Positions 1 through 2,754 of a stretch of 32,502 nucleotides of DNA are shown one piece after another. How positions within the stretch are numbered: the first letter of the stretch is position 1; every line of letters begins with the position of its first letter. Source of the DNA: Methanothrix harundinacea (GTDB taxonomy: Archaea > Halobacteriota > Methanosarcinia > Methanotrichales > Methanotrichaceae); contig LGFT01000018.1 in NCBI GenBank assembly GCA_001509375.1, forward strand, positions 1 to 32,502. Direction: 5' to 3'. The position numbers were made by a program, and so were the translations under genes. The notes under the pieces were generated by a model. That model saw only the letters and a list, made by a program, of their open reading frames with translations. It was not told where the DNA came from and made no database searches.

Positions 1-81
1 GAGAAGTACTTCGTCCGGGTGGACACAACCGAGGTCTTTCCGTTCATGGTCACCAAGATGGCGCCATACTACGACAGGTGA
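1..81 (+). CDS. C-terminal end of an unidentified protein (partial, runs off left edge)
   Basis: The first 26 codons of the window are open in frame 1 and end at TGA (79-81). The visible residues are mixed and non-repetitive and end in APYYDR. I recognise no motif in so short a piece. It lies 27 bp before the start of the small cysteine-rich gene, so the two may be co-transcribed. Because only the tail is present, the function cannot be judged. Confidence 0.5.
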   Translation, partial: EKYFVRVDTTEVFPFMVTKMAPYYDR

Positions 82-90
82 ACAAAAGTA

Positions 91-102
91 AAAAGGAGGT
101 GA
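91..102 (+). promoter_or_regulatory. Strong Shine-Dalgarno before the small cysteine-rich gene
   Basis: AAAAGGAGGTGA lies 7 nt upstream of the ATG at 109. It is an almost full complement of the archaeal 16S rRNA 3' end and the strongest ribosome binding site in the window, so the short reading frame is probably translated. Confidence 0.7.
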
Positions 103-108
103 AAACGA

Positions 109-255
109 ATGGGTACTTGTTGTTCAGTATGTCAAGCCCCTGATGGGACACAGTACGGAGGAGTTACAAAGATAAAGAATGTGTCTAGTTGCCCTCCGCC
201 AGGATACATTCGAGAATGTGGTGAGACCGGTTGGGCTGTGTATTGGTGGTGTTAG
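109..255 (+). CDS. Small cysteine-rich protein, 48 residues, unknown function
   Basis: ATG at 109 and TAG at 253-255 enclose 48 codons. A near-perfect ribosome binding site sits 7 nt upstream and a terminator-like hairpin begins 6 nt downstream, so the frame looks like a complete, deliberately expressed gene. The product has six cysteines at residues 4, 5, 8, 28, 37 and 48. Its N-terminus has a CCxxC arrangement, the middle has SSCPPPGY, and the C-terminus is aromatic (W42, Y45, W46, W47) and ends in cysteine. It has no hydrophobic signal peptide. The cysteines could bind a metal or an Fe-S cluster, form disulfides, or be modified as in a peptide natural-product precursor; the sequence does not decide among these. 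I do not recognise the family. The preceding partial gene is the only neighbour on the same strand. Confidence 0.65.
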   Translation: MGTCCSVCQAPDGTQYGGVTKIKNVSSCPPPGYIRECGETGWAVYWWC

Positions 256-261
256 ATAAAG

Positions 262-297
262 GCTGCCCTCCTGATCGAGGGCAGCTTATATTTTTTA
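262..297 (+). terminator. Hairpin terminator after the cysteine-rich gene
   Basis: GCTGCCCTC (262-270) pairs perfectly with GAGGGCAGC (277-285) across a 6-nt loop and is followed by a TTATATTTTTTAT tract. It is a 9-bp GC-rich stem with a U-run, in the form of an intrinsic terminator, placed 6 nt after the stop codon. Confidence 0.7.
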
Positions 298-526: not shown

Positions 527-1024
527 TCAATCGTTCAGAAGTTTTGCTTGCACCCCTACGAAGCGCTCGTTAGCAGTGCCCGGCAGGTCTACTGCCCACA
601 GGAAGGCTCTCCAGGTCAGAGCATCTTCATCTTGCAAGGTCCATGTGCTCCATGCAAATGAGGCACTATCTCCTTCCGCTTGTTTCGTCCAGTTAGCAGC
701 TTTAAATTGATTCCCGTAGTGAGCAACCAGAACTGAACTATTCATGCTGGTTTCCATGGTGATGCTGGTACTAACGAGATCGCTCCTGCTGGTACCAGAG
801 CCTTGATTAAATTCTTTGGAGTCAGATGGAGCAAGCAGCCTGGGTAGAGGTTTCAGCCAGTTATCCTCTATCTCCCTGCAAGCTTTGCAAGGCGAATATT
901 CGGGATCAGTTTCGATGTTAAGACGAACATCCGTGGGGCTGCTCTCAACGGGATATGCTCTAATGGTAAGTGGCGGGTCATTGCTGTTCTGACACATAAC
1001 GAGTTTGATTTCATTGAATGCAAA
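527..1024 (-). pseudogene. Decayed second copy of the C-terminal domain of the TPR protein
   Basis: Read from about 1024 down to TGA at 527-529, this frame encodes a clear second copy of the domain that ends the intact part of the TPR protein. Shared pieces include LTIxAYPV, TDVRL, SANWTKQ or AANWTKQ, AWSTW, QDEDALTW, PGTxNERF and GVQAKL. The copy is in a different frame from the upstream gene. About 78 residues present in copy 1 (between EELATRLLET and VEYDKII) are missing at the join near 1015-1030. The simplest reading is a tandem domain duplication followed by an internal deletion of roughly 235 bp, not a multiple of three, which put the second copy out of frame. An in-frame ATG at 995-997 could start a 156-residue fragment, but it has no ribosome binding site or signal peptide. 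Confidence 0.7.
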
Positions 1025-2754
1025 GCCTCTATTAGACGTATGGCCAGTTCTTCAATAGATGACTCATTACCTACCTCTGTATTTTCAGAATTGTTATAGC
1101 TCTGCCTGGTGGCGACAATGCCAGAATCGTTCAGGTCTGTCTGCGTTGAGACATTTCCATCGCTTTGAAGTTTCGCTTGTACTCCCAGGAAGCGTTCGTT
1201 GGGAGTGCCGGGTAATTCCACAGCCCAAAGAAGGGCGTTCCAGGTCAAAGCATCTTCATCTTGAACGACCCATGTACTCCATGCCGATGAGCCATCATTC
1301 CCCTCATCCTGTTTTGTCCAGTTAGCTGATTTAAGCTGGTCGCCGGTGTGGCCAACCAAAGATAAGCTACTCATACTGCTCTTCAGGAGGTCGCTGGTTC
1401 CAACGAAATCGCCACCCACGGACGAGTATTGTTCATAGAACTTCACCAAGGCGTCAGATGGCACCTCATACTTTTGGAGGGGTTTCAAACTGCTCTCCAT
1501 ATCCTCCGTCTTTCTGCACGGCAGATACTTGGGATCGGTATGGACGTCCAGGCGAACGTCTGTAGTACCATCTTCAACAGGATATGCTGAAATGGTCAAC
1601 GCGGGGTTTTTCTTGCCGCGACAAACGATAATTTTATCGTACTCTACCGAATATTTTACGCCCCGGTCACCAGCAGCCATTTGCTCTTTATAGAAGTCAA
1701 ACACCTGCTCAGGAGTCTGATTGACGTCGAGAACTATGCTGATGCGCTTCTGATCTCGGACGATGCTGCCGACAATCCTGGCGTTCTCAGGTATCGGAAA
1801 ATCCATCGGCATATCTTTTGGAATTTCTCCCGCCAGCAGCTGGACCGTATCAAACTCGTAGTTACCCGTGTAAGTTTGTTCCGTTTCTAATAATCGAGTG
1901 GCCAGCTCTTCAACAGGCTTGTCGCGATCATCAACCATCAAATCTATGACATTTGTCGACTTTGTATCAGCTTCTGAGCCGCTGCCCAATGCTTTCAAAG
2001 CCAATTCTTTGCTCTTCAAGACATAGGCATTATCTGGATCCATTTGGAGAACTTCATCATAGGCCAAGATCGCTTCTTCGATTCTTCCCATTGCTTTTAG
2101 CAAATCCCCTTTGCTGATCAGGTCCACAATAGCTAAACGAGGATTTGGTGCTGACTCAATGGCTTTATCATAGGCTTCTATCGCCTCTTCGCGTCTGCCC
2201 ATCTTTTTAAGGATATCTCCCTTTCCCGACCAAGCAAACGTATTATTAAAAAATGTATCTGTTGAATTCTGAATATCATCCTCATAGATCCTCAGCGCCT
2301 CTTCAAAGGCGGATAAAGCGCTTTCATGCGCGCCCAACTCTTCCAGCGCTTCGCCCTTCTCCTCCCACGCTCTCGCATTTTTGGGATCTATCTGGATAAC
2401 TCTCTCGTAAGCCTCAATGGACTGATTATATCTCTTCATGAGAAGAAGCTCGTATGCCATCGCTCCCCAGGCCTGGTCGCTCTTGGGATCAATTTCAGTG
2501 GCTCTCATATAGGCATCTAGCGATTCATCATGTCGTTCTAGGCAGCTCAAAGCCGTGCCTTTCGCGAGCCATGCTGCCATATTGTTGGGATTAAGTTCGG
2601 TGGCCTTATCATATGCTTTAACGGCCTCTTCTCCGTACCCGTTCTCGTACAGTTCGTCGCCCTTTTTCACCCAGTCTTCTGCAATCTCTTCGGCCACTGA
2701 GAAGGCACACAGTGCAACTAGGGCCATCAAGATCGCTAAAACTCTTTTTCTCAT
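868..2754 (-). CDS. Secreted tetratricopeptide-repeat protein with frameshifted C-terminus
   Basis: The protein has 628 residues. Residues 1-21 form a signal peptide ending near SVAEE. Six TPR units follow (about residues 23-250), each with the pattern W-x2-KG-x-L...A-x-x-AYDKA-x-E-x-(D/N)P. A second domain (about 270-540) contains FPIPENARIVGS and VNQTPEQVFDFYKEQM, which resembles small extracytoplasmic domains described as helping bacterial lipoproteins fold, and then a Trp-rich part with SAWSTW and NERFLGVQAKL. The last ~50 residues are frame-shifted nonsense relative to the duplicated domain: the intact reading ends near IEELAIRLIEA (about nt 1025-1050). The start ATG (2752-2754) has a TATA-like box 19-26 nt upstream. 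The likely role is protein-protein contact outside the membrane; no enzyme motif is visible. Base composition is more AT-rich than the genes to the right. Confidence 0.8.
   Translation of the reverse strand: MRKRVLAILMALVALCAFSVAEEIAEDWVKKGDELYENGYGEEAVKAYDKATELNPNNMAAWLAKGTALSCLERHDESLDAYMRATEIDPKSDQAWGAMAYELLLMKRYNQSIEAYERVIQIDPKNARAWEEKGEALEELGAHESALSAFEEALRIYEDDIQNSTDTFFNNTFAWSGKGDILKKMGRREEAIEAYDKAIESAPNPRLAIVDLISKGDLLKAMGRIEEAILAYDEVLQMDPDNAYVLKSKELALKALGSGSEADTKSTNVIDLMVDDRDKPVEELATRLLETEQTYTGNYEFDTVQLLAGEIPKDMPMDFPIPENARIVGSIVRDQKRISIVLDVNQTPEQVFDFYKEQMAAGDRGVKYSVEYDKIIVCRGKKNPALTISAYPVEDGTTDVRLDVHTDPKYLPCRKTEDMESSLKPLQKYEVPSDALVKFYEQYSSVGGDFVGTSDLLKSSMSSLSLVGHTGDQLKSANWTKQDEGNDGSSAWSTWVVQDEDALTWNALLWAVELPGTPNERFLGVQAKLQSDGNVSTQTDLNDSGIVATRQSYNNSENTEVGNESSIEELAIRLIEALHSMKSNSLCVRTAMTRHLPLEHIPLRAAPRMFVLTSKLIPNIRLAKLAGR

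Follow-up and report, generated by a model that had tools for sequence, protein, structure and literature searches.

A stand-alone PatG-DUF gene paired with a hypervariable, leaderless cysteine-rich peptide in Methanothrix-type archaea

Cyanobactin pathways, not all of which include a heterocyclase, are the closest described counterparts of the archaeal locus reported here. PatA and PatG of these pathways end in a DUF (PF18047 plus PF18065; structure 4uvq) that was reported to be conserved across these pathways, and to which no role could be assigned in the 2014 structure paper (PMC4259220). Cyanobactin precursors are described as having the cleavage sites G(L/V)E(A/P)S and AYDG, with PatA-like enzymes cutting after the first of these (PMC10885120). 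A further point of comparison is offered by TIGR04068-type cysteine-rich peptides, which occur with radical-SAM maturases and have in common with the present locus a short, Cys-rich peptide. As in cyanobactin systems, a small precursor-like peptide lies here beside the DUF, and the unit is a cassette of two co-directional genes, the first for a stand-alone PatG-DUF protein (~300 aa) and the second for a short Cys-rich peptide without a leader. A search of freely available full-text articles listed no description of this cassette, which we read as a reduced form of a cyanobactin-like system.

The window, i.e., the whole stretch of DNA that was analysed (32,502 nucleotides), is the entire contig C35 of a 2.38-Mb Methanothrix harundinacea genome (G000), with position 1 at the contig end (Table 1). 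An earlier note, made from the letters of the sequence, had described near this end a compact unit of ribosome binding site, 48 codons, hairpin and T-run, which we confirmed base by base, with its coordinates verified, and had rightly placed its origin in the archaea. The encoded 48-mer has cysteines at residues 4, 5, 8, 28, 37, and 48, and among the 166 ORFs of 35-80 aa in the window (each frame taken from its first start codon) its ORF alone combines at least six Cys with a GGAGG within 18 nt. The terminator-like hairpin is present as described, with a predicted fold of -21 kcal/mol (z -5.95; none of 200 shuffles equally good by RNA folding), while its stem, previously given as 9 bp, is predicted at 11 bp (ten Watson-Crick pairs and one G-U), the 9 bp being the uninterrupted core only. 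The region 3' of the G002 orthologue folds too (z -5.13).

Table 1. Features of the window and of a related region in genome G022, with the basis for each assignment
Feature	Position	Strand	Basis or details
Stand-alone PatG_D-PatG_C (PatG-DUF) gene, 3' end, 26 codons + TGA	1..81	+	PF18065, paralogue and G022 similarity
Shine-Dalgarno AAAAGGAGGTGA	91..102	+	Read off the letters; belongs to the junction common to cassettes
Six-cysteine 48-residue peptide gene (payload)	109..255	+	ATG 109, TAG 253-255; homologues, dN/dS, pairing
Terminator-like hairpin + T-run	260..296	+	Arms 260-270 / 277-287; T-run 291-296
Convergent TPR-repeat protein gene, signal-peptide-like N terminus	868..2754	-	TPR Pfam matches; signal peptide by eye
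Three cassettes flanked by radical-SAM/SPASM pairs, ABC transporters and two 1273-1275-aa proteins	G022:C1 about 2976000-3008626 (L025, L046)		

The 48-mer has no match in Pfam or NCBIfam, and a search of 60 genomes of relatives recovered two homologues in which all six cysteines are kept, a point that the earlier note had proposed to check, at 83% identity in G002 and 59% in G022, with the remaining matches at E 0.003 or worse. Coding constraint was assessed by dN/dS (Nei-Gojobori) for five peptide pairs between genomes, four of which range from 0.08 to 0.35 (G035-G015, 0.08; C105-G012, 0.18; window-G022, 0.34; G002-G022, 0.35), and four pairs were put to a Fisher test, which gave an excess of synonymous over nonsynonymous changes per site for three of them (p 0.0045, 7e-6, and 2e-6, from rounded counts). 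The closest pair, window-G002, stands at 1.41 on 2 synonymous and 10 nonsynonymous changes, a value not different from 1 (Fisher p 1.0). Coding constraint is thus evident between the more distant homologues, while close ones such as the window-G002 pair may be under relaxed or diversifying change. The claim that the unit codes for a protein, for which the earlier note had looked to Cys-conserving homologues and coding constraint, survived this examination, with the closest pair alone showing no constraint; the 48-codon unit is a real gene, the second in a two-gene cassette.

The first gene lies on the side where the earlier note had advised looking, to the left, and enters the window at its left edge as the 3' end of a PatG_C-domain gene; this partner, the paralogous cassettes, and the wider family described below had escaped its notice. 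Against PF18065, the fragment at positions 1-81 gave E 6.5e-5 and 23.3 bits (cut-off 25.9) over profile positions 93-115 of 115. It is 88% identical to residues 278-303 of a full-length DUF protein in G022, and bases 1-105 share 94% DNA identity with a longer paralogue on contig C105 of the same genome. The full-length G022 relative comprises PatG_D and PatG_C in 303 residues, matching PF18047 at E 9.5e-35 (119.9 bits vs a cut-off of 27.0) and PF18065 at E 1.1e-29 (103.2 bits vs 25.9), and the C105 paralogue scores 41.4 and 119.0 bits, respectively, both above cut-off. A structural model of the Methanosaeta DUF protein L060 (mean pLDDT 83), in which low pLDDT marks the segment preceding the DUF as disordered (values below 50 at residues 1-40 and 42-48), matched the PatG-DUF 4uvq at a Foldseek E of 3.9e-14 (Z 21.8; 3.1 A over 244 residues), and 4uvq was the sole Foldseek match at E <= 0.001 for this model, which represents L060 and not the window fragment. 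By domains and fold, the partner protein belongs to the PatG_D/PatG_C family, with the same two domains and the same fold as the cyanobactin DUF. We also aligned model residues 49-179 with VIA-align, which returned many OB-fold chains at a commonplace Z of 5-8, and drew no function from it. A PADLOC scan gave no match for two DUF proteins or for the peptide.

PatG-DUF genes occur in six of the 60 relatives' genomes (G000, G002, G012, G015, G022 with seven copies, and G035), and a search with the Pfam model found them in 6 of 392 genomes drawn from the phylum. Near-identical copies (C35 and C105, 94%) probably explain why the window's left edge falls inside a DUF gene at a contig end; the G002 contig likewise begins inside a PatG-DUF copy. 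The C105 paralogue (L050:1881-2699, minus strand, and upstream) is frame-disrupted twice in its N-terminal half, either by decay or by assembly error, and, the window gene being truncated, no intact DUF copy is seen in this assembly. About 2 kb past the 5' end of the C105 copy, a 181-aa frame (L050:4678-5223) has a Gly/Cys-rich stretch.

Pairing between the two genes is tight. Fifteen DUF copies were examined in the six Methanothrix-type genomes, one of them at a contig end, and all 14 readable copies are followed, after 22-28 nt, by a peptide of 39-71 residues with 6 or 8 Cys. As a control, a Cys-rich follower was found for 12/12 PatG-DUF ORFs vs 0/127 other ORFs on the same stretches, counting ORFs of at least 120 aa with room downstream (two truncated DUF copies fall outside the 12). 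The junction is itself recognizable: the pattern AGGTGAAYAA-N(2,12)-GGAGGTGA occurs 12 times in the 60 genomes, solely in the six DUF-positive ones, leaving two G022 junctions of the known 14 undetected, and its reversed control gave 0 matches in the same 60 genomes.

Paralogous cassettes differ sharply in what follows this junction. For example, G022 copies 2986 and 2989 share 99% identity in the 300 nt that precede the ATG, yet their peptide DNA is 58% identical, a value no better than chance given that shuffled peptide DNA aligns at a mean of 63% identity, so that similarity ends at the peptide start. The same drop is seen between G002 copies a and b (96% over 182 nt upstream, then 67%) and between C35 and C105 (93% over 108 nt upstream, then 59%), while the converse case, G035-G015, combines 88% identity in peptide DNA with 73% upstream. 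The payload peptide has been swapped and the DUF partner kept; near-identical DUF paralogues carry unrelated peptides, and the peptide set is hypervariable. This pattern argues against reading the 48-mer as a metal-binding microprotein (a small metallothionein or an iron-sulfur protein) served by the DUF protein as metallochaperone, where a conserved metal site would be expected to persist, unlike the wholly different peptides carried beside near-identical DUFs. That reading draws on the CCxxC start and high Cys content of the 48-mer, on an ArsR/SmtB-like regulator (below cut-off) near the G022 cassettes, and on the single Zn held by the PatG-DUF crystal, the ligands of which are reported to be poorly conserved (both from PMC4259220), and we regard it as very unlikely. 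Among the three functions suggested in the earlier note, the evidence agrees best with a disulfide-stabilised peptide or a payload resembling a precursor, with the metal-binding microprotein rated lower.

Related DUF proteins extend well beyond the methanogens. When GTDB species genomes were searched with the DUF alignment together with two short peptide patterns, a procedure that gives a lower bound, at least 28 loci were found, four of them Methanothrix-type and 24 others, with DUF proteins of this wider family 43-52% identical to that of Methanosaeta L060. Hosts include Nitrosospira, Nitrosovibrio, Methylococcaceae, Acidobacteria, Brocadiaceae, and actinobacteria, as well as the archaeal Methanophagales (L087) and Nitrososphaerales (L079). 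Each of the 24 non-Methanothrix loci has one or more small ORFs bearing the leader M..P-G-F-T-A-E-A-S-L-Y or a near variant of it, in 22 loci no more than 120 nt past the DUF gene, and the strict motif is present in 46 peptides from 23 loci. An S8 protein lies nearby in 23/24 (the exception is L079, where the contig measures 7.4 kb). For two of the S8 proteins, the best NCBIfam model was mycosin (TIGR03921; E 3.5e-38 and 5.9e-37) and the second PatA (TIGR03895; 3.7e-32 and 8.2e-32), all below cut-off, and subtilase-type models were matched when an S8 protein was scanned with PADLOC. The AEAS of the leader resembles G(L/V)E(A/P)S, a hint that the S8 protease and the leader belong together. Leader peptides are mostly Cys-rich, although leader ORFs with 0-3 Cys are present as well in L069, L079, and L086, and members of the leader-type and related kinds gave no NCBIfam match (0/8 tested) and none above a Pfam cut-off (0/9 tested). 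The form PGFTAEASLY-x5-Y recurs on mostly Cys-rich small proteins, often several per locus (L063, L065-L087).

The Methanothrix-type cassettes share with these split S8 + DUF systems (Nitrosospira, Methylococcaceae, Acidobacteria, Methanophagales, and others) a related DUF protein, but have neither the nearby S8 protein nor the conserved leader: leader-bearing small ORFs are seen in 0/4 Methanothrix-type loci, one chance motif match in a long L062 frame having been dropped, and no S8 protease was found in the four locus stretches. By reading, all 14 Methanothrix-type peptides are without PGFTAEASLY, and the strict leader pattern gave 0 matches in the six DUF-positive genomes, but it also misses one of three genomes known to have the leader. 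At E 1e-5, no PatA/PatG-type S8 protease was matched in G000 or G002, and the S8 matches in G012, G015, G022, and G035 are partial, at 33-36% identity in frames of 622-802 aa. Neither G(L/V)E(A/P)S nor AYDG was seen on reading the 48-mer. In contrast to PatG, the DUF here is separate, without protease, oxidase, or linked heterocyclase, and its peptide is without a leader. PatG likeness in other archaea takes another form: two genomes from a different family of the same class (L116 and L117) encode fused S8-DUF proteins, in open frames of 716 and 735 aa, with small peptides nearby.

We consider it about 66% probable that the 48-mer is the leaderless payload of a reduced cyanobactin-like cassette, predicted to be disulfide-bonded and handled by the DUF protein. 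Such a cassette would be a reduced form of the wider system, in which a PatA-related S8 protease, the stand-alone DUF, and leader-bearing peptides are encoded together, with protease and leader gone and DUF and payload left, and duplication of cassettes with replacement of their peptides would generate a repertoire of different products.

Alternatively, the 48-mer could be a classical modified-peptide precursor, its cysteines being modified by a radical-SAM enzyme, a YcaO, or similar, with the DUF as a recognition element or scaffold only. Genome G022 invites this comparison, with two radical-SAM/SPASM pairs and ABC transporters sharing a region with three cassettes; the best models for the pairs are TIGR04068 and TIGR04193, both below cut-off, and one of the two 1273-1275-aa proteins of that region was tested and is an S8 peptidase. 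Such maturase-like proteins, seen below cut-off near the three G022 cassettes, were not found in G000 or in three of the five other cassette genomes, which sets the cassettes apart from the TIGR04068 type. Relatives of the radical-SAM protein (at least 52% identity) occur in 4 of the 60 genomes (G015, G020, G022, and G030), only two of which are among the six DUF-positive ones, and searching with the G022 protein at E 1e-20 gave nothing in G000, G002, G012, or G035. Radical-SAM maturation as a general mechanism was rejected on this count, four of six cassette-bearing genomes being without a match, as was the G022 ABC exporter as a general partner, with no match at E 1e-30 in G000, the one genome searched. 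YcaO is single in five of the six genomes, on another contig in four and ~0.5 Mb or more away in G022, and was not found in G012; that of the window's genome is on another contig, unlinked to the cassette. No modifying enzyme is reliably linked to the cassette in the window's genome, and we judge enzymatic modification of this kind unlikely.

Genes facing the cassettes raise a different possibility, i.e., antagonism or self-recognition, in which the peptide would be an effector and a convergent secreted repeat protein (TPR, propeller, or HEAT) its immunity protein or receptor. On the gene maps, 13 of the 14 cassettes have a convergent gene ending next to them, and nearly all of these genes encode repeat proteins, by domain search or by eye: four were searched for domains, giving TPR, HEAT, and propeller-like repeats in three and no domain in the fourth, and the others were assigned by eye. 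Among 14 other mapped loci, L079 has a TPR-like ORF and L082 a propeller-like one (by eye), with no repeat partner seen by eye in the rest. The window's genome is rich in such stretches (48 TPR and 9 propeller matches), so that proximity between cassettes and repeat genes may mean little, and an effector role with the repeat protein as counterpart is improbable in our estimate. Positions 521-1027 of the window resemble part of the adjoining TPR gene but lie in a different, stop-containing frame, whereas in G002 the corresponding gene is a single ORF of 957 aa.

For the reduced cyanobactin-like cassette, we infer transcription of the 48-mer and its partner as one unit, binding, disulfide formation, export, and a biological role. 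The DUF protein would bind the co-expressed peptide and assist its cysteine pairing, the folded DUF domains potentially doing the binding and a CxC or CxxC in the N-terminal tail acting as a thiol-disulfide site. The product would be compact, held together by disulfides, and active outside the cell; a secretion signal or exporter was looked for with the peptide and none was found. In an alignment of 25 DUF proteins, made from the 28 loci without the truncated or disrupted L061, L072, and L087, a tail CxC or CxxC is present in 21 DUF proteins and CX4C in one more (L082), and the tail is without Cys in three (L064, which is G012, L083, and L085), whose peptides are Cys-rich, as is that of L082. 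In the two fused S8-DUF proteins of related archaea, the linker at this place contains CGC. Cysteine number is even in 14/14 archaeal peptides and in 44/50 leader-type peptides with at least two Cys (rows above 180 aa or with fewer than two Cys dropped), compared with 125/173 unrelated small ORFs with at least four Cys, giving Fisher p 0.02 for the 14/14 and p 0.03 for 39/44 leader-type peptides, with related sequences counted singly. We did not take parity as decisive: strong against a coin, it is weak when real small ORFs are the reference.

We read the DUF as a peptide-binding folding factor with a thiol tail. This reading is supported by the motif in the tail, by the close association with Cys-rich peptides, and by the finding that none of the other enzymes tested is common to the cassettes. 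Generalized to PatG and PatA, this would make the DUF a dedicated folding factor for Cys-peptides, with its CxC/CxxC tail making or shuffling disulfides, which the Methanothrix group would keep alone, without protease and leader. We offer this extension tentatively and hold it to be doubtful. Against the folding-factor reading, the PatG DUF of the patellamide pathway showed no NMR binding to unmodified or heterocyclised PatE (PMC4259220), 4/25 DUF proteins are without CxC/CxxC, and the parity signal is weak. The window-G002 dN/dS, the lack of an intact DUF copy in the assembly, and the ranking of mycosin ahead of PatA, all given above, also count against the cassette reading.

In these cassettes the DUF is separated from all the cyanobactin enzymes that were tested and linked to a single small peptide, which makes its function approachable with two genes, and Methanothrix-type methanogens have in these peptides a diversifying repertoire. 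If true, the folding-factor reading would describe a self-contained machine maturing hypervariable disulfide peptides inside an archaeon. The search also uncovered a widespread group of peptides, bacterial and archaeal, that share a leader and are for the most part Cys-rich; the group is defined in this analysis, and the members tested matched no family model. Two further leader forms were observed: in the Nitrososphaerales locus, a PGFNAQ-type leader stands on a 530-residue frame with 122 cysteines (L079:5627-7219), and the small peptides near the fused S8-DUF genes of L116 and L117 bear a third leader type, resembling MRVPKQAKPVIRNTS.
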